Source: a virus
DNA: 64,000 nt
Direction: 5' to 3' (one strand)
Virus record (IMG/VR): IMGVR_UViG_3300018890_000002
Location: 1 to 64,000 of that record
This document shows, piece by piece, positions 14,031 to 59,284 of this stretch; within the stretch, counting starts at the first letter, position 1, and each line of letters starts with the position of its first letter. The notes under the pieces are model-generated. The model saw nothing but the letters and a program-made list of their open reading frames with translations. It did not search any database and had not been told where the DNA came from. Position numbers and translations under genes: made by a program.

Positions 14031-14198
14031 TCATGAATTATTAGTATCTTCTAACTCTTCTAAAAATTCTTGTACTTCTTCATTAGTTTTTTCAATGTCT
14101 TCTTCACTAGAATCACTATTTACATTTGATCCTACTGAATCAAACCAAGCATCAAACTCATCAAGAATCCCACTATCTCTATCTCCACTAAATGTCAT
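14031..14198 (-). CDS. Small acidic protein
   Basis: 55 residues from ATG 14198, which overlaps the stop of the upstream gene (TAATG). Very acidic (SSEEDIEKTNEEVQEFLEEL). It ends with TGA at 14031-14033; another in-frame stop follows 2 codons later. The acidic composition next to strongly basic, Gly-rich neighbours suggests a chaperone or charge-neutralising partner, which is inference. Confidence 0.55.
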   Translation of the reverse strand: MTFSGDRDSGILDEFDAWFDSVGSNVNSDSSEEDIEKTNEEVQEFLEELEDTNNS

Positions 14199-15388
14199 TA
14201 TTTTTCACCTTTTAATTTTCTAATAAAAGATTTGACATTAGACCATTTACCTGATTTATTTTTCCTCATAAATCCTTTAACTTTACCATCATCGGAAGTT
14301 AGGTTATTATAAGCAACTTTACTTAATTTACCTGTTACTAATCCTCCGGCTCCTAGTATTGCAGCTCCAGCTAACATTCTTTTCGGATTAGCTTTAATTA
14401 GTTTTGTTATTCCTTTTAATTTACTTCCTCCTCCTTCTCGTTTTAATGCTTCCAGAGTAGTTTTAGCTCTATTGCCACTAACTTTAATCTTATTACTAGC
14501 TTTCATAGCGTAAACATCATCTGGATCTGGGACAAAATTTTTATTAAAATAATCGTCACTACCACCGATATAAAGTGACCTTCCAGAACCAGTTAATCCT
14601 TTACTAATAGCTTCAGGCTTTCTTTGTTCTATTATTTTATCTGTGATATTTCTTTTTTCATCAATGCCACTATTGATACTTCTAATACTTTCCTGACTAT
14701 CTTTAATTTGCTTTTTAAGATCTTTTACTGTATAACGCTTTTCTGGATTTAATGTGTTTCTAGCAGGAATTACTATTTCTTTAGCTCCTGTTTTACTAAG
14801 CTCTTTTAGTCGATTGGATGCTAATTCTACGTCTTGTTTAGAAAGTAATAGTCTTTTTTGTGTTTCAGGAGATTTTCTCCATTCTTTAACTGCATTTTCT
14901 ATAGCTTTTTTATCCATTGGCATTTCAGATTGACCACGATAAAATGCTCTTTGTAATTTTCTATAAACGTTTTCTCCTACAATATTTTGATAAGCTTTCT
15001 TTAATTTTCCTGCGTTATTATTACTAGGGTCATAGTTAATATGTTTACCAGTAATAAATACATTATTCTTAGCTCTATTTAAAAACTGTTTATTCTTTTC
15101 AAAAAAGTCATATTCTTTCATAATGCTATTTTTTGAATTAAGATCGTTACTTACTAAGTCTTTAGTAATTCCTCCTCCCCCTCTATTTGGATCAAGAAAT
15201 CCTCCCCCTTTAATAATTTCTTGAGCAGCTTTTTTAGATGTACTATGAGATTCTAAACGAACACCTAACAGTCTAGGAATACCGGATCTAGCAGTTTGTT
15301 GACCTACAATTCCAGCTCCTCCAAGAAATACTACTCCTTTAACTTTACTTTTTTCTTTTGATTTTTTAAACTCTGCTATAAATCTCAC
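14198..15388 (-). CDS. Putative virion ADP-ribosyltransferase-like protein, copy 1
   Basis: 396 residues; GTG start overlaps the previous stop (GTGA). Residues about 35-75 read RSGIPRLLGVRLESHSTS then A-x-E-I-x-x-G-G-F-L-D-P. The H-S/G-T-S block followed by A-x-x-I-x-x-G-G recalls the start of ART-fold enzymes of the Tpt1/diphtheria-toxin type. Further matches shared with its paralogue are ITGKH near 115 and SLYIGGSDDYFNKNF near 275. A hydrophobic Gly-rich segment (AGAAILGAGGLVTGK) and a basic tail end the protein. The catalytic set cannot be confirmed by eye. Likely a virion component and possibly ejected into the host. Confidence 0.5.
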   Translation of the reverse strand: MRFIAEFKKSKEKSKVKGVVFLGGAGIVGQQTARSGIPRLLGVRLESHSTSKKAAQEIIKGGGFLDPNRGGGGITKDLVSNDLNSKNSIMKEYDFFEKNKQFLNRAKNNVFITGKHINYDPSNNNAGKLKKAYQNIVGENVYRKLQRAFYRGQSEMPMDKKAIENAVKEWRKSPETQKRLLLSKQDVELASNRLKELSKTGAKEIVIPARNTLNPEKRYTVKDLKKQIKDSQESIRSINSGIDEKRNITDKIIEQRKPEAISKGLTGSGRSLYIGGSDDYFNKNFVPDPDDVYAMKASNKIKVSGNRAKTTLEALKREGGGSKLKGITKLIKANPKRMLAGAAILGAGGLVTGKLSKVAYNNLTSDDGKVKGFMRKNKSGKWSNVKSFIRKLKGEK

Positions 15389-15903
15389 TTATTTCTCCAT
15401 CTTTGATATAAAATATTCCAACCAGCAGAACTCACTTGTCTTAGCTCTATTGGATTTCCAGTTAAAAGATAATCTAATTCGTTTTGCCATATAGGATAAT
15501 AAGTAAAACTTTGATTTCCTATATAGTTATTATCAATATCTACTAGAGATATGAAATACTCAAAGTTAAATAGACCTTCTTGATGTTGCTCATATTTATT
15601 AATCCATATAGTATTAGGAACTAATAAAAGATTTTCTAATATAACTTTAGAGGCTAGAGGATAAATCTCAGTAGTAATAGAACCTGCTATATGATCATTA
15701 AAGTCACTACAGATAACTAACTCATATTCTTTAGGATTAAGATACCTTCGTTTTTCTTTTATGCGTTGAGTAGTTACATCAAAATCGTATAAAGGAGAAT
15801 AAATTTGTAAGTGGCAAGTATTATTTCTGATAGAACCTAAGTAATCAGTTTGCCAATTAAATATTTTATCTACTTTTTTTGCGTTATTTTTATATTGTTC
15901 CAT
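15385..15903 (-). CDS. Unknown protein between the ART-like paralogues
   Basis: 172 residues, soluble, aromatic-rich (13 or so Tyr, 7 Trp), beta/alpha. It overlaps copy 2 at 15903 and copy 1 at 15385-15388, so it is tightly coupled to both. Stop TGA lies in a GTGA overlap. No family recognised. The sandwich between two paralogous effector-like genes suggests a partner or chaperone, which is inference only. Confidence 0.6.
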   Translation of the reverse strand: MEQYKNNAKKVDKIFNWQTDYLGSIRNNTCHLQIYSPLYDFDVTTQRIKEKRRYLNPKEYELVICSDFNDHIAGSITTEIYPLASKVILENLLLVPNTIWINKYEQHQEGLFNFEYFISLVDIDNNYIGNQSFTYYPIWQNELDYLLTGNPIELRQVSSAGWNILYQRWRNK

Positions 15904-17003
15904 TAATCTCTCTTTAATTTATCTCTTATGAATGATTTGACATTAGACCATTTACCTGATTTATTTTTTCTACTATATCCTTTGACTTTTACATTAGGAT
16001 TAAAGCTGTCAAAAGAGGTCTTAGCATTCATTGCAGTAATAGTTCCGCCTACTCCAAGAATAGCTGCTCCGGCTAATGCTCTTTTAGGATTAGCTTTTAT
16101 TAATTTAACTGCTCCTTTTAATCTACTTCCTCCTCCTTCTGTTTTTAAAGCGTCTAATGTAGCAGAAGCGCGATTTCCATGTACTTTAATTTTATTTTCA
16201 GAGTACATTGCCCGGACATCATCAAAATCAGGTTTAAAGTTTTTATTAAAATACTCATCAGAACCTCCTAGATAAAGTGACCTTCCTTGAGCAGGATTTA
16301 ACGCTTTATTTATGACTTTACCTCTTTCTTCTCCTAAACGTTTAGCAGTTTTTTGTTGTAAAGTTTGCATATCCAACTGAGCTTGTTGACCCTCTAAACT
16401 TAAATCACTTTCAAAGGGACTTCTAAGTTTAAACTTAAATTTATCACTTATACCTTCTCTTACGTTAGCTTTATTAATTCGATCAGTATCTATCTTTCCT
16501 TGAAGTTCTTTAATTTTTCCTATATCTTCATTTACATAATTCCAATCAATTAGAGATTGCGCTCGATAACCAAGTCTTTGTTCTTTTCTAGCTAAAACTT
16601 GTTGTAAAGCACTTTCTTTTTTAGGGTCAACAACTACATTTAACATTGGATTTAGAGGATTAGGCATTTTTCTACTACCTGCATTCTCATGAATTCCAGT
16701 AATATAAGCTTTACCTTTAGCTTGATTAATATCTGTTACTCCACTAATTCCTTGTATAGATTCTAAAGATCTAATAGCTCCAGTACCACTTTTATTAGGA
16801 TCAATCCATCCACCATTTTTTAGTATCTCTTTAGCAGTTTTATTACTTGTACTATGAGATTCTAATCTAACTCCTAGGAGTCTAGGTATCCCTGAACGAA
16901 TAGTTTGTTGACCTGCATAACCAGTAGCTCCTAAATAAGCGATACCTTTACCTATACTTCTTTTTTTCTCTTCAGCTTTTTTAAATTCTGCTATGAAGTG
17001 CAT
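15903..17003 (-). CDS. Putative virion ADP-ribosyltransferase-like protein, copy 2
   Basis: 366 residues, clear paralogue of 14198-15388 over its whole length. Shared blocks are RSGIPRLLGVRLESHSTS, G-G-W/F-x-D-P-N, the Y-I-T-G-x-H motif, SLYLGGSDEYFNKNF, the hydrophobic AGAAILGVGGTITA and KNKSGKWSNVKSFIR at the C-terminus. The middle (about 130-230) differs most. The N-terminus MHFIAEFKKAEEKKR resembles the short hydrophobic-plus-basic start of several neighbouring glycine-zipper proteins. Confidence 0.5.
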   Translation of the reverse strand: MHFIAEFKKAEEKKRSIGKGIAYLGATGYAGQQTIRSGIPRLLGVRLESHSTSNKTAKEILKNGGWIDPNKSGTGAIRSLESIQGISGVTDINQAKGKAYITGIHENAGSRKMPNPLNPMLNVVVDPKKESALQQVLARKEQRLGYRAQSLIDWNYVNEDIGKIKELQGKIDTDRINKANVREGISDKFKFKLRSPFESDLSLEGQQAQLDMQTLQQKTAKRLGEERGKVINKALNPAQGRSLYLGGSDEYFNKNFKPDFDDVRAMYSENKIKVHGNRASATLDALKTEGGGSRLKGAVKLIKANPKRALAGAAILGVGGTITAMNAKTSFDSFNPNVKVKGYSRKNKSGKWSNVKSFIRDKLKRD

Positions 17004-37165: not shown

Positions 37166-38950
37166 CTAAAAACAATATCCTAAAACTTTCTTGCCTTCTA
37201 TTTTTCTAGAAGTCTCAGAACCAGGAATATATTTGAGAACATCTAACCCTTTAGCTTTTTTATCTAACCTTAAGCTGATATAAATTTCGGCTAAGATATT
37301 TTTGCAATCGTTCATACTATAAAAAGTATTTTTCTCAAAAGTCTTTTCTAATTTATCTTTAATAACGTTTTGAACTTCTTGGCATTGAGCATATATCTCA
37401 TTATTAATTTTTTTCTTAACGTATTTTAAAGACCTAATACGAGAGATACCTAGAATTTCTACTGCTTTCTTGATTGAGTTATCAAGACTATTAATCTCAG
37501 CTAAAGTTTCTAAGTCCAATTCACTCAATTCTTCTTTAGACATAATTTCAACATACTGCTTGAGCATTGCTTGGTAACTAATGCTAGTAGTATTATATAA
37601 GAAATCATCTTCGATCTTTTCATATTCCTGATTACCCTCAAGAGTAAAACCCGCATCAATATATCCTTGTCTAATACTTAATCCACTACTATAAATGCCG
37701 TGAATAACCTCATAGTTAAATTCTTCGTTTAGCTTTTTAAGTTCGTTGAATTCAATAGTATTGGTTTCTGAATTGTACTGAATATAAAAATCATCTAAAT
37801 CTAATTGATATAGTTTTTTATAAGCTTCTTTCTCTAAATCCTCCATTTTATTATTAAACATATTAATGTGAACAAGAGTATCTTTAACTTTATTCTCTAC
37901 TGTATTTTGGAATTCTTTTTCATCTAGTTCATATACTCCAGTGTTGTAGATATGGAAGATAGTATCTTTAAATGGATTATTAATGTTTCGTATCCTACCT
38001 GCAATTTGAGTAATATCTGTGGAGATGTCTAGTAGAGTATGTTTTTTACTAACTCCACTTACTACATAGATCACTCCACTATCTGAATAGAAATCAACTC
38101 CAAGGAAAGACTTAGATGTTACGAACGTGAATGGTTTATTTGGATCATGTACCTTGCTAATACCAAAATCTTCTAAGAGATACTTATTTCTATCACTTTC
38201 ACCACAGATGATTTTTACTTCATCAGGAGTTAGATTAGCATTATCTAAGATATCTTTAATAATACGAACAGAGTTAACAAAAAAATAAGCTTCATGACTA
38301 ATGTGGTTTCCTATTTTTAGTTGATAGCCATTAGCTTTATATTTAGCGATAATTTTTACTACATTAGCAAAGGGAGTATTAGTCTTCTTTCTATGTAGTT
38401 TAATTTGTCTAGTTACCCATTTAACTTCTGTGTAATCTAAGTCAGCTAATATCTTAGGAGTAAACTTTGGCTTAATAGGTGTGGCGGATAGATACGTTAC
38501 ATAGTTGAACTTACTAGATTCTTCTAATAAAGTATCAATAGCTTTATCTCGGTATGAGTAGTCACTAAGTATTTTATGATACTCATCAACTAAGAGTTTG
38601 TATTCAGTATAAGCGTCTATCTCTAATGCCTTTAACCAATTAACTGTTTTGTGCAATGAGTTATAAGTGGTAAATATTTTAATATTCGATTGATTTGCTT
38701 TAATTTGTTTAGCAAAAGTTTTATAATCCATATCTCCGTATACCCCAATAATTTGAGTGTTCTGACTCATTTTGTTACTGATAATCTCAATAGTGGGAAC
38801 AGCTACAATATATGGATCAAGAGATACGGTAGCTAGAAAAGTACCTCCTACTCCAGTAGCTCCTTTGTTGAATATACCTTGAGGTAACTCCGACATGAAC
38901 TCACTGAGATAGATGGCGGGGGCTGGCGCTTCGATTGTGTGAATAGTCAT
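37166..38950 (-). CDS. SF2 helicase-like protein with lysine-less Walker A, copy 1
   Basis: 594 residues from ATG 38950. An earlier ATG at 38992 overlaps the likely -10 box, and the paralogue aligns from 38950. Motif I is FNKGATGVGGTFLA (GxTGVGGT, no catalytic Lys), motif II LLVDEYHKIL, motif III TYLSATPIKPK, motif V SKSFLGVDFYS, motif VI QIAGRIRN. A C-terminal domain (about 470-594, with IKKAVEILGISRIRSLKY and LDKKAKGLDVLKYI) is shared with 57500-59284 and with the GIY-YIG protein at 53467. ATP use is uncertain because the P-loop Lys is missing. Possibly a replication initiation or origin-melting protein. Confidence 0.7.
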   Translation of the reverse strand: MTIHTIEAPAPAIYLSEFMSELPQGIFNKGATGVGGTFLATVSLDPYIVAVPTIEIISNKMSQNTQIIGVYGDMDYKTFAKQIKANQSNIKIFTTYNSLHKTVNWLKALEIDAYTEYKLLVDEYHKILSDYSYRDKAIDTLLEESSKFNYVTYLSATPIKPKFTPKILADLDYTEVKWVTRQIKLHRKKTNTPFANVVKIIAKYKANGYQLKIGNHISHEAYFFVNSVRIIKDILDNANLTPDEVKIICGESDRNKYLLEDFGISKVHDPNKPFTFVTSKSFLGVDFYSDSGVIYVVSGVSKKHTLLDISTDITQIAGRIRNINNPFKDTIFHIYNTGVYELDEKEFQNTVENKVKDTLVHINMFNNKMEDLEKEAYKKLYQLDLDDFYIQYNSETNTIEFNELKKLNEEFNYEVIHGIYSSGLSIRQGYIDAGFTLEGNQEYEKIEDDFLYNTTSISYQAMLKQYVEIMSKEELSELDLETLAEINSLDNSIKKAVEILGISRIRSLKYVKKKINNEIYAQCQEVQNVIKDKLEKTFEKNTFYSMNDCKNILAEIYISLRLDKKAKGLDVLKYIPGSETSRKIEGKKVLGYCF

Positions 38951-39312
38951 AAATTTTGAGAGGGAATATATTTTAGTTGTGTCTACTATCATTATAGCTC
39001 GAATACTACAAAAAATCTTCTCTCTGATAAATTAGAGAATAAAAAATTCAGTTTAGGAATATAAAAAGCTACTATGTAAACTAAAAATTATTCACTTCGA
39101 TTATGAAAAATAAGTTGTGGATTTTTTAAATTATGTATTATTGTTAATGCTCATTTTTGAAAATTAGTCCACAGTTTGAAAATATTTATTTAGTAGAATA
39201 ATAGGTTAATGTCCAGTAGGATAATCTGAGAAATTGCAACTATTAATTACGGTAGCATTGTTACTTCTTATCTAGTTGTGATATAATGAGCTAAATAACT
39301 TAGGAGATTAGT
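38951..39312. promoter_or_regulatory. Divergent promoter region
   Basis: AT-rich spacer of about 360 bases between divergent genes, with no ORF I can support. Leftward: TATAAT at 38996-38991. Rightward: TTGTTA 39258-39263, 18-base spacer, TATAAT 39282-39287 with a TTGTGA stretch just before it, about 25 bases ahead of GTG 39313. Confidence 0.55.
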
Positions 39313-45233: not shown

Positions 45234-45917
45234 TTAGTAAGACTCTATCTCTGTTATTGCTTTAGCGTTTATTACATTTATATCTTCTACTGCTCGTTTC
45301 TCTTGTTTCATATTTTGTTCTATTCGCTGTCTTTCCTCTAAGAGTTTTTTGATTTTTTCATCCATTGCTTGAGGGTTTTGTTTTAGTTTAGTTAGTTGTT
45401 TAGTTCTTTCTTTTGTTTGTATTTCTTCTAAGTGTTCTTGTAAGGATTCAGTTCCCATTATTGCTTTAGTTAATGTATGAACTTTTCCTATTACTTCAAC
45501 TATATCTTTTAAGTCTCTTGGATTGATTTGAGGCATTTCTTCTAGGTCATATCCTTCTTCGTTTGCACTCTTAAATGCTTGAGGATATTGATTGAAGTAT
45601 GCGTTAATTAGTTGTGCAGTCTTTCCTAGTTGAGCAAGAGCTAAAGTATCTGACATATTAGATTCACCTAATATTGATGTTACTTTACCTTCTGTCATCC
45701 TCCTTCTTAACTTAGAGTCTAAGAGGTTTCTTTGATGTGTCCATTTATCTCTATGAGCTTTGTCGGTTAGAGTATTAACTGATATTTCATGTTTTTCAGC
45801 TAATCGTTTCATTGTGTATGGTCTATGACATTCTATCCCTTCTTTATTGAGATAGATTTCTCCTACCATATAATCTAATCTGATTGAATCCCAATCCCAT
45901 TTTTTGGGGAACGGCAT
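45234..45917 (-). CDS. Terminase small subunit candidate
   Basis: 227 residues. HRPYTMKRLAEKHEISVNTL, then T-D-K-A-H-R-D-K-W-T-H-Q-R near residues 32-65, is the helix-turn-helix pattern of phage small terminase-like proteins (A-x-x-x-x-V/I-S-x-x-T-L-x-x-x-A-x-x-x-x-W). The rest is helical, ending in a coiled coil. It would bind packaging start sites. It is 10.5 kb from terL and next to the large noncoding region, where a pac or cos site could lie. Confidence 0.65.
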   Translation of the reverse strand: MPFPKKWDWDSIRLDYMVGEIYLNKEGIECHRPYTMKRLAEKHEISVNTLTDKAHRDKWTHQRNLLDSKLRRRMTEGKVTSILGESNMSDTLALAQLGKTAQLINAYFNQYPQAFKSANEEGYDLEEMPQINPRDLKDIVEVIGKVHTLTKAIMGTESLQEHLEEIQTKERTKQLTKLKQNPQAMDEKIKKLLEERQRIEQNMKQEKRAVEDINVINAKAITEIESY

Positions 45918-46647
45918 ATATTATTCCTTGAATATCGTATAAATTTTTAGTCTTTCTATTTTATTTTACTTGCTTTTGAATAATTATATTTTGTGTATTG
46001 TTTTGGGTTGTTTATGTTGATTAGTTGTTAAAGGGTTTGGTGTTTAGTAACTCACACTTTCGTTGCATACGCACCTTCCCACATCCCAGCCACCTATTAC
46101 CTCTCAGCACTCACAGTCCTATAGCGTATCACTTGACAGCCTGTCCATCATCTGCTATCCTCTATTACTCTTCATAAGCTCTACTTATAACTATAACCCT
46201 TACTCATTAGCTATTCTCATTTGACGTATTCCCTATCATCTGTTACCCTATGATCCTTATATAAGTAGCTATCCCCGCTGTAAGCCGTTATCTGGTACGG
46301 CTTAGCACTACTATCCACACAGAGGCCTCTAACGTCGCATCCTAGCCACCTTATCTCTATATCCTATGTGTTCTATCTTTAGCTATATGACTAAGCTTAG
46401 ATAACCTACTAACTCTTATGACTTATAGTATGGTTGTAATATATAAGTAGTATACTAGGAGTTAGTCTTAAGACTATTAGGAACTCTAATGGCTTACCCC
46501 CTTTACAATACCTCTATTATCGTGCGAGTATAGATACATCGAATAAGAGAGACGGGCGAGCCAAGCTTAACCTTTACTCATAACTCGATTCAGAATCTTA
46601 ACCTCTAGGACATAAGCAAAACTCATAAGACAAAAGCTTAAAAAGAG
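45918..46647. other. Noncoding region, left part: pyrimidine-rich repeats
   Basis: No ORF. From about 46040 to 46440 the plus strand is rich in C and T. Visible structure: an 8-bp hairpin TAAGCCGT/ACGGCTTA at 46281-46304; a 14-base perfect palindrome TAGTCTTAAGACTA near 46463; an imperfect 31-base direct repeat beginning TTGAC at 46133 and again at 46221, with a shared CATCATCTG/TATCATCTG core; and a repeated C-x-AGCCACCT box near 46087 and 46335. Iterons of an origin or terminase recognition sites are possible. Confidence 0.4.
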
Positions 46648-46676
46648 TTGACATCTTAAGAGCAACCCGCTAGAGT
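46648..46676 (+). promoter_or_regulatory. Candidate promoter for the structured RNA
   Basis: TTGACA at 46648-46653, 17-base spacer, TAGAGT at 46671-46676, with TATAGA overlapping just after. A perfect -35 is rare in this genome. Confidence 0.5.
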
Positions 46677-46682
46677 ATAGAG

Positions 46683-47345
46683 AGTTAAGAAACCACAAGC
46701 CCGCTGAGTGCTGGCATTACATTATCGGAAAGACTCGGATCTGAGTGATCCCTAAGTCAATCCATCCCCTCGGATCTAGGCTGCTTTTAAAGTTGTCTAG
46801 CCCGAAAGGGAAAAACTACAGTTACATCTTGCGGTCAAACTTTCTCTTATGAGTTAGCTCGATCGTAATAGGTTGGCCTCACAGGCTGAATAACTTCGAG
46901 GCTGTTTTCGAGTCAATCCTTCGGGATAGTCACTCCAATAGCTAGACATAATTTAATAAATAAGAGTTAACGCTTGAAAGTCTGGCGGTTTGCTCATCTT
47001 AGAAATTGGTAACTGAGATGAACAAAGCTACTTAAAGATTAGAGAGTATTACTCCAACAGAACCTAGACAACCAAATAGTTTTACCTGCAATGGTAGCTT
47101 GACAAGCAATCTCGCTTTATACCATTATCTGCGGTAAGTAAGTTTTAACTCTAATTTCTATGGGTTACTAACTACTGAGACAAAGATAATCAAATGATAC
47201 AAGTACAGTATAAAGCACTAAAACATCTATCCCTATTTTCAACTAGCAATTGATTAGGGAGTGCGATAGATGGAGATTAAGCGAAGTAATAGGCGATCGA
47301 AAGTACAAAAGTATAGACGATCTATGGTTCGATTCCCCTAGCAGG
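46683..47345 (+). ncRNA. Large structured RNA candidate
   Basis: About 660 bases without coding text but dense in stable hairpins. Examples are GGATC/GATCC (46737-46751), CCC-GAAA-GGG (46801-46810), GCCT/AGGC (46876-46886), ATCC-TTCG-GGAT (46916-46927), CATCTTAG/CTGAGATG (46995-47020), AATGGTA/TACCATT enclosing GCTT/AAGC (47090-47126) and CTAT-CCCTA/TAGGG-ATAG (47227-47269). It ends in a T-arm-like GGTTCGATTCC (47326-47336). GAAA and TTCG tetraloops are meaningful only on the plus strand, supporting rightward transcription. Size, phage setting and nearby tRNA-like elements recall GOLLD or ROOL class RNAs; I cannot confirm either. Confidence 0.5.
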
Positions 47346-47383
47346 TATTACCGGTAAACTATCCCCGGTGACAAGTGAGAAAA

Positions 47384-48336: not shown

Positions 48337-48405
48337 TACTCCTATAGTCTGTCGTTAGCTATAGGGGCATTGATACCTAACACCGATAAAACTAGGTATT
48401 TTATC
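48337..48405 (+). promoter_or_regulatory. Two-hairpin leader
   Basis: CTCCTATAG pairs with CTATAGGGG (9 bp) around the loop TCTGTCGTTAG. Then ATACCTA pairs with TAGGTAT around ACACCGATAAAAC. Both stems differ in sequence from the leader at 47792 but keep the same order and the ACCG-T/A-TAAAAC loop, which is covariation-like evidence for structure. ATG 48430 follows. Confidence 0.55.
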
Positions 48406-48429
48406 CACCAATACTTAGGAAGAAAGACA

Positions 48430-48789
48430 ATGACTGATATAGAAAAGTTAGAAGCAATTCTTGAGATGAGAGGGAGAACGCTGCCGACAATTCAAAGAGT
48501 AGGGGAAGTAGTTAAAAGTGAAAGATGTAAAATGTGGCATCATCTAGCAATTGTTAACATTACATCATACGGTATAGGTTATATTCTAACAGTTGACAAA
48601 ACCCATCCGACTCTTAAGTATCACTACATCGCTGTTACTGCGGATTATGAACCAATAGGGATCTACAAATATATAGAAGATGCTCAACATTTTCTAGTAG
48701 GGGATCTAAAATACGCAGCAGTTCTCGGAGGTAAAAGTCAGGAAGCCAAACCTAGACCTTATGATGCTGTGTTAGGTGGCAAGAGATAG
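48430..48789 (+). CDS. Unknown protein
   Basis: 119 residues from ATG 48430, preceded by AGGAAG. Alpha/beta (GYILTVDKTHPTLKYHYIAV). The C-terminus repeats AVLGGK twice (YAAVLGGKSQEAKPRPYDAV). No family recognised. Confidence 0.6.
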   Translation: MTDIEKLEAILEMRGRTLPTIQRVGEVVKSERCKMWHHLAIVNITSYGIGYILTVDKTHPTLKYHYIAVTADYEPIGIYKYIEDAQHFLVGDLKYAAVLGGKSQEAKPRPYDAVLGGKR

Positions 48790-57472: not shown

Positions 57473-57499
57473 ACATTTATAGTTTAAAATGTGTCAACC

Positions 57500-59284
57500 A
57501 TGAAATATCAGATTCAAGCTCCAAGTAATGCTCTTTATGTTAGTGATTTCCTAAGTGAAATTCCTAAAGGGATAATTGACAAAGCAGCGACGGGGGTAGG
57601 TATGAGTTCTATTGCTTTAGAAGATAAATATCCTACTATTATTGCTGTTCCTACTATTGAAGTGATTAGAAACAAAACTGCACAATATCCTAATGACAGA
57701 CGTTCTGAATCTGTTTTCGGGTACTATGCAGGAGTAAAAGATAAAAGCGTAATTGAGTATCTTAATTCTACTGCAATTCCTAAGATTTTAGTAACTTATG
57801 ATAGTTTTTATAAGGTGGCTAAACTAATAGACAAGACTATTTATCGAGTAGTTGTAGATGAATTCAGTGATTTACTAGATGCTTACAGCTACAGAGATAA
57901 AGCTATTGAACATTTACTATCAGCAGTCCAAGATTTTGAGTATGTATCTTACATCTCTGCTACTCCATTAAAAGAAGAGTATTATCCTGAAGCTCTTAAA
58001 GGTTTAGATGAGTATGAAATAGTTTGGCAAGGTTCAGTAAAGATTAAAGTTGAGAGAAAAAAGACAAATAAGCCTTATAAATTAGCTTGTAACATCATTG
58101 AAGCCTATAAAGCAGGAGGAAAAGAGGGGTTATTAATGCCTAATGGTCACTATTCTAAGTCTGCTTACTTTTTTGTTAACTCGGTTAACTCAATTGCAAG
58201 TATTTTAGAAGCTTCAGAATTAGAACCTAGTGAAGTGAGAGTAATTTGTGCTAATAACGAGGTAAACCAGAAAAAATTAGAAAATTATCCCATTGAAACT
58301 GCTTTAGCTCCTGAGAAAAAGTTTAATTTTATTACCAGTACAGCTTTTAAAGGTTGTGATTTCTACTCTGAAAGTGGGGTTACTTACATTATTAGTAACA
58401 CTTCTAACAGCAATACCTTAATTAGTATTGATACTGATGTTAAACAAATTGCAGGAAGGATTCGTAACTCTAATAACCCTTTCAATAACCACATTTACCA
58501 CATCTATAATACTGATAATTCACTTTTATCGGCTGAAGAGTTTGAGAAATTAGTTAAAAAGAAAACAAAAGCTACAGAATCCACTATTTCTCTATTTTAT
58601 AAAGGTAATGAAGAAGAAAGAGAAACTTATTTAGCTAATTACTATTTAAGAGCTAAGTGTAAATTTAGAGATGACGACTATACTTACCTCACTGATGAGA
58701 ATAATATTATCTTTAACCACTATGCGGTATTAAATGATAAGCGTAGATGGGAAGTTAGTAGTAATGTATATAGAGATGGAGTTTCTATTCGAGAAGCTTA
58801 TCTTAAAGCAGGATGTTTTGATATTTCTACTTATCAAGATTTTGAGAAAATAGAGGATAATGGCTTTTTAAATAAGCTTACTAATGGCAGCTTTAAGGAG
58901 TATTGTCTAAAATATATCAACAACACTGAAGAAAGAAGCTATATAGGTGATAGATTTCCAGTAATTAAAGAAGCATTTAGTCGACTAGGTGCTGATAGAA
59001 TGAAAGCTTTAAGTTATAATCCTTCAAGATTTCTATCTGAGATGCAGGTTAATTCAGATTCTACTCAAAACTACATAATTAGAGATTTAGAAAACACACT
59101 TGTAGTAGGACAAGAATACCTTTCAGCAGAAATAAAGGCTATGTTCAATAATATTTATTATGCAGTGGGGATAAAAAAGAAAGCTAAAGCTACTGATATT
59201 GAGGCTTATTGTGACATTGAGAAAAAACAAAGAAGATTTAAAGGTGTTCTTAAAAATGTAATTGAGATTAAAGCTTGGAAATAA
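57500..59284 (+). CDS. SF2 helicase-like protein with lysine-less Walker A, copy 2
   Basis: 594 residues from ATG 57500; GTG 57491 is also possible. Motif I IDKAATGVGMSSIALEDKY (no Lys), motif II VVVDEFSDLL, motif III SYISATPLKEEY, motif V TSTAFKGCDFYS, motif VI QIAGRIRN. It aligns with copy 1 throughout (IPKGIIDKAATGVG and LPQGIFNKGATGVG; IIAVPTIEVIRNK and IVAVPTIEIISNK). Its C-terminal domain (about 465-594) holds FPVIKEAFSRLGADRMKALS and KKKAKATDIEAYCDI. Own promoter and terminator. Probably a DNA-remodelling or replication protein. Confidence 0.7.
   Translation: MKYQIQAPSNALYVSDFLSEIPKGIIDKAATGVGMSSIALEDKYPTIIAVPTIEVIRNKTAQYPNDRRSESVFGYYAGVKDKSVIEYLNSTAIPKILVTYDSFYKVAKLIDKTIYRVVVDEFSDLLDAYSYRDKAIEHLLSAVQDFEYVSYISATPLKEEYYPEALKGLDEYEIVWQGSVKIKVERKKTNKPYKLACNIIEAYKAGGKEGLLMPNGHYSKSAYFFVNSVNSIASILEASELEPSEVRVICANNEVNQKKLENYPIETALAPEKKFNFITSTAFKGCDFYSESGVTYIISNTSNSNTLISIDTDVKQIAGRIRNSNNPFNNHIYHIYNTDNSLLSAEEFEKLVKKKTKATESTISLFYKGNEEERETYLANYYLRAKCKFRDDDYTYLTDENNIIFNHYAVLNDKRRWEVSSNVYRDGVSIREAYLKAGCFDISTYQDFEKIEDNGFLNKLTNGSFKEYCLKYINNTEERSYIGDRFPVIKEAFSRLGADRMKALSYNPSRFLSEMQVNSDSTQNYIIRDLENTLVVGQEYLSAEIKAMFNNIYYAVGIKKKAKATDIEAYCDIEKKQRRFKGVLKNVIEIKAWK

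Follow-up and report, generated by a model that had tools for sequence, protein, structure and literature searches.

The stretch of DNA analyzed (64,000 nt, positions 1 to 64,000 of record IMGVR_UViG_3300018890_000002; hereafter the window) comes from an 81-kb IMG/VR virus record carrying large-terminase and capsid genes. It contains a 1.47-kb gene-free gap, flanked by a leftward gene (45234–45917) on one side and by a rightward operon from 47384 on the other. The region 46648–47345, proposed in a first-pass annotation to encode a large ornate noncoding RNA, is inside this gap, and no credible ORF was found across the stretch up to 47374, so that the noncoding character assigned to the bases behind its promoter was confirmed. 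Feature coordinates are listed in Table 1. Elsewhere in the window, two paralogous helicase-like proteins (~600 aa) are encoded at 37166–38992 (−) and 57491–59284 (+), with a homologue also near the gap in relative G003; adjacent paralogous genes at 14198–15388 and 15903–17003 (−) both contain the motif LLGVRLESHSTS. Small proteins with a C-terminal repeated AVLGG(K/Q) motif (YAAVLGGK...PYDAVLGGK) are encoded at window 48370–48789 and on viral contigs L061 (2003–2461) and L062 (2053–2703).

Table 1. Coordinates of features in and around the gene-free gap (window numbering).
Feature	Position	Strand	Basis
Gene-free gap, 1.47 kb	45918..47383	+	No credible ORF; same gap in six relatives
Promoter-like site TTGACA-17-TATCCT, TG before −10	46133..46161	+	Consensus scan, within chance expectation
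Promoter-like P1, TTTACA-18-GAGTAT, then AGATACAT	~46502..46531	+	Comparable sites in relatives; weak in window itself
P2 (promoter of first-pass annotation), TTGACA-17-TAGAGT	46648..46676	+	Direct reading; consensus scan; conserved in one relative, G003
5′ structured domain	46540..47059	+	Window/G003 alignment folding, z −7.3
Best supported 5′ helices	46765-46768/46808-46811, 46770-46773/46802-46805, 46776-46781/46795-46800, 46830-46836/46861-46867, and the UUCG hairpin 46915-46928	+	Window/G003 alignment
boxA-like element GAACCTAGACAA plus CCAAATAG	47060..47079 (GAACCTAGACAA 47060-47071)	+	Sole window copy; kept in six genomes; cyanobacterial match
tRNA-like 3′ domain	47084..47346	+	All six acceptor pairs kept across six genomes, three with compensation
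Acceptor helix	47084-47089 with 47341-47346	+	Covariation in six genomes
Helix H2	47109-47113 with 47273-47277	+	Almost invariant, little covariation evidence
Helix H3	47124-47130 with 47184-47190	+	5/7 pairs exchanged on both sides
Helix H5, bulge GUGCG and loop CUAGCAA conserved	47224-47235 with 47255-47259 and 47266-47272	+	Three pairs exchanged on both sides
T-arm end GG-UUCGAUU-CC	47326..47336	+	Stem interrupted by hairpin inserted at ~47294-47322

Using the leftward gene and the large terminase, six related IMG/VR phages with the same gap and the same neighboring gene were found (G001, 57 kb; G002, 151 kb; G003, 130 kb; G005, 150 kb; G007, 81 kb; G008, 147 kb), and the gap was present in all virus contigs that turned out to carry a close leftward-gene homologue. 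The large terminase of G003 was 84% identical to that of the window, and those of G001 and G002 ~71%. Seven homologous regions were thus compared (window plus six relatives), some of them closely related; length differences between them were largely whole hairpins at varied points, with hairpin character judged by eye. Among named phages, the nearest major capsid proteins were those of Pseudanabaena phages PA-SR01 and Pam2 (30% identity), which also have a distant homologue of the leftward gene near the large terminase, and the same gap was not found beside that homologue. A search of named phages and plasmids returned no nucleotide relatives, and 84,980 species genomes yielded neither the neighboring gene nor the large terminase; the window's tRNA-Arg gave no match when searched as a host clue. 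Because of the capsid and neighbor-gene homology to Pseudanabaena phages, and the cyanobacterial form of the boxA-like element described below, the hosts of the window phage and its relatives are likely cyanobacteria.

The promoter of the first-pass annotation was exact as read (TTGACA 46648–46653, 17-nt spacer, TAGAGT 46671–46676), and was kept at 10 of 12 positions in G003, the only relative to conserve it. An upstream promoter-like site, P1, had been missed; P1-like sites were found upstream of the RNA in G003, G005, G007 and G008, and TATAAT-AGATACATG in G001. The RNA probably extends further 5′ than originally drawn, from P1. At positions comparable to the most upstream site in Table 1, G005 and G008 have TTGACT-type sites. 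Promoter-like matches in the window stretch were not above shuffles (3 found, 4.3 expected). Segments 46620–46634 and 46841–46855 are complementary at 14/15 bases, loosely kept in G003, and would pair across P2 if the transcript starts at P1.

Folding of 46680–47374 was more stable than that of shuffles (z = −3.3, 0/20). Structures in the 5′ domain were picked by a folding program, and shuffled controls provide the evidence for them. Between the window and G003 (64% identity over 46557–46866), 8 compensated pairs were counted in the core alignment and 11 over a longer alignment; G005, G007 and G008 have in common another version of the 5′ domain (alignment z = −6.7). Alignment z values for the three RNA alignments were −8.2, −7.3 and −6.7 (3′ domain ~ −8), compared with −0.9 for a control stretch upstream of P1 in G005, G007 and G008. 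The plus strand folded better than the minus in the RNA alignments, and single-sequence folding z averaged ~ −2 on the plus strand against ~ −0.7 on the minus. The stable hairpins reported earlier do exist, among them a UUCG hairpin (AUCC-UUCG-GGAU, 46916–46927; 46915–46928 in the helix list), but the conserved structure probably does not include the reported GAAA tetraloop: CCC-GAAA-GGG can form at 46801–46810, whereas comparison with G003 favors pairing these bases differently, as UCCC/GGGA and UCGG/CCGA, with the second of these replaced by GCGG/CCGC.

A T-arm-like hairpin closes the region in 7/7 phages, with UUCGAUU or UGCAAUU as the loop and with the stem broken by an inserted hairpin in the window and G005. 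The tRNA T-arm-like end noted in the first-pass annotation is real, and it is more than a look-alike hairpin, being closed by a compensated acceptor helix with its partner strand ~250 nt upstream. This helix reads ACCUGC/GCAGGU in three genomes, ACCGAU/AUCGGU in G001 and G007, and ACCAGC/GCU(a)GGU in G002, where a bulged A is required. An acceptor helix continuing into a T-arm with a T-loop was found in 6/7 phages; the D and anticodon arms of the tRNA plan are replaced by a variable structured insert, and CCA is not encoded. Helix H3 is AUUAUCU/AGAUAAU in the window, GAUAUCU/AGAUAUC in G002, AUUACUC/GAGUAAU in G005 and GGUACUC/GAGUAUC in G008. The full-length 3′ domain alignment comprised four genomes (window, G002, G005 and G008) with the structure fixed by hand; 94.5% of cells were paired, 9/32 pairs had changed on both sides, and the covariation score was 0.375, compared with 0.178 for shuffled alignments (0/500 reaching the observed value) and ≤ 0.115 for slid controls. 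The unconstrained minimum-energy fold of the window's 3′ domain contained these helices. Counting G-U against A-C cells did not discriminate between the strands for this domain (2 against 3). A covariance model of the 3′ end found one strong copy in each of its four source genomes and nothing credible elsewhere, and did not detect the 3′ ends of G001 and G007, which have diverged. Scanning for the domain as a DNA motif returned the known members plus matches without a T-arm. G003 has the promoters, the 5′ domain and a T-arm-like hairpin (GAAGG-UUCGAUU-CCUUC) followed by a hairpin and TTTT, and has neither boxA nor acceptor helix nor insert. Either most of its 3′ domain has been lost, or the 5′ domain is able to stand alone.

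The boxA-like element, which the first-pass annotation had also missed, was present as a single copy in the window against 0.12 expected. In 6/7 genomes (all but G003), GAACCTWGANAA followed by ATAG occurred at a single site, 23–24 nt before the acceptor strand; in G005 an inserted hairpin widens this distance to 44 nt. The phage element matches GAACCTTGAAAA, the boxA found in the 16S-23S spacer (ITS) of cyanobacteria (PMC8461337); judged by sequence, a boxA thus appears ahead of a putative stable RNA. In a motif scan of viral contigs, the boxA-like motif also turned up immediately ahead of tRNA arrays in other phages, favoring its interpretation as a signal for stable RNAs. In L015, L018, L020, L024, L026 and L034, GAACCTTGACAATTAAATAG directly precedes a tRNA-Lys located at the head of, or within, a large array (up to 26 tRNAs), and these six contigs share identical sequence at the site. 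Paired boxA-like motifs ~150–170 nt apart were seen in L033 (12781/12952), L035 (825/993) and L037 (minus strand, 7755/7906) with no tRNA called beside them, and possibly mark other unannotated phage stable RNAs.

A search of Rfam, including GOLLD, ROOL and all other families, gave no match. The GOLLD (RF02032) covariance model had no match in the window or the six relatives, with control genomes scoring only below the cut-off; nor did ROOL (RF03087), in a search run without a positive control. ARAGORN and Rfam found no tRNA (cloverleaf with anticodon arm) here, and no tmRNA was found by model or by ARAGORN; with no Rfam match, a group I intron and an RNase P RNA were likewise discarded as candidates.

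A structured RNA in the gap is well supported by these comparisons, and selection at the RNA level is indicated because the 5′ and 3′ domains have compensated pairs and strongly negative z values against −0.9 in the upstream control. Covariation among homologues, which the first-pass annotation had proposed as one check, was strong, and the hidden conserved protein that it had named as counter-evidence was not found. Its suggestion that the RNA is GOLLD, ROOL or a new class survives in the part concerning a new large RNA (seven regions, covariation, no Rfam match), and its GOLLD/ROOL part does not. The product appears to be an intricately folded non-coding RNA not described before, some 430 to 820 bases long, in phages probably infecting cyanobacteria.

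We assign a probability of about 0.5 to the reading that this is a phage stable-RNA unit using host Nus/boxA antitermination, with a tRNA-like end cut by RNase P. The tandem promoters would start a long plus-strand transcript, boxA would recruit host NusB and S10 (NusE) as on rRNA, and polymerase would pass the untranslated stretch and continue into the rightward operon. The stacked acceptor and T-arm would form a minimal RNase P substrate, and the 3′ domain, cut out like a tRNA, would accumulate as a separate RNA of ~160–290 nt. Set against this are the missing boxA and acceptor helix of G003, the bulged A in the G002 acceptor, window promoter sites not above chance, the small and partly close-knit set of seven genomes, and a domain without encoded CCA that no tRNA or tmRNA program recognizes. 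As a guess, the mature RNA might act on host translation machinery or serve as a scaffold. A rather unlikely extension is a new class in which the tRNA D and anticodon arms are replaced, an rRNA-type boxA unit is used, and the RNA acts in trans on host ribosome or tRNA machinery during infection.

The main rival, possible but tentative, is that the RNA forms the structured 5′ leader to the rightward operon, cis-acting in antitermination or regulation and never released separately; the tRNA-like end would then serve to cut the mRNA or to control its first gene. In each phage a rightward operon begins at the gap, with a gene closely after the 3′ domain, the window has no clear terminator, and boxA suits read-through, all as a leader would have it. 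However, the RNA is retained between relatives although the first downstream gene differs, G003 has a hairpin with TTTT after its T-arm, and a leader would not usually combine an acceptor with a T-arm. An RNA of tmRNA type, highly diverged and acting on stalled ribosomes, is improbable: the gross plan is the same (acceptor, long-range H2, structured insert, T-arm), but there was no tmRNA model or ARAGORN match, by-eye inspection found no short tag frame consistent between relatives, the acceptor lacks the alanine G3-U70 pair, and the full insert in G007 is just 162 nt. Still less probable is that the region encodes no RNA and instead serves as a DNA element (an origin, a packaging site or an attachment site) or hides a protein gene. 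Both options are opposed by the covariation of long-range helices, the insertion of entire hairpins, the plus-strand motifs (boxA, T-loop) and the better plus-strand folding, even though the gap adjoins a gene whose Pseudanabaena-phage homologue neighbors the large terminase; in G008 a chance open frame runs across the 3′ domain, but that frame hits stops in the window and G005. Membership in GOLLD or ROOL, suggested by size, phage setting and the variable 5′, conserved 3′ layout described for GOLLD (PMC12286853), is scarcely credible given the covariance-model results.

Known giant phage RNAs are few and their functions unexplained, and the present RNA would enlarge the set. On the stable-RNA reading, boxA and the tRNA-like end are two handles for predicting its synthesis and processing, which opens its biogenesis to direct testing, and the arrangement suggests that phages borrow a host signal for rRNA antitermination to make stable RNAs of their own. 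Like GOLLD, it is a large structured phage RNA with a conserved 3′, variable 5′ layout and a tRNA association; here, in contrast, the RNA itself incorporates a tRNA-like domain, with boxA ahead. Assembly into a homo-oligomeric cage is a further mark of GOLLD. ROOL is likewise a large structured phage RNA, often near tRNAs, but its covariance model has no match here. tmRNA has the same combination of acceptor, T-arm and sizeable structured insert, whereas the present RNA has no model match, tag frame seen or alanine identity pair. In rRNA leader and ITS antitermination, the same cyanobacterial boxA sequence stands ahead of a structured stable RNA; here it is phage-borne, a tRNA-like domain follows instead of rRNA, and Nus dependence is predicted.
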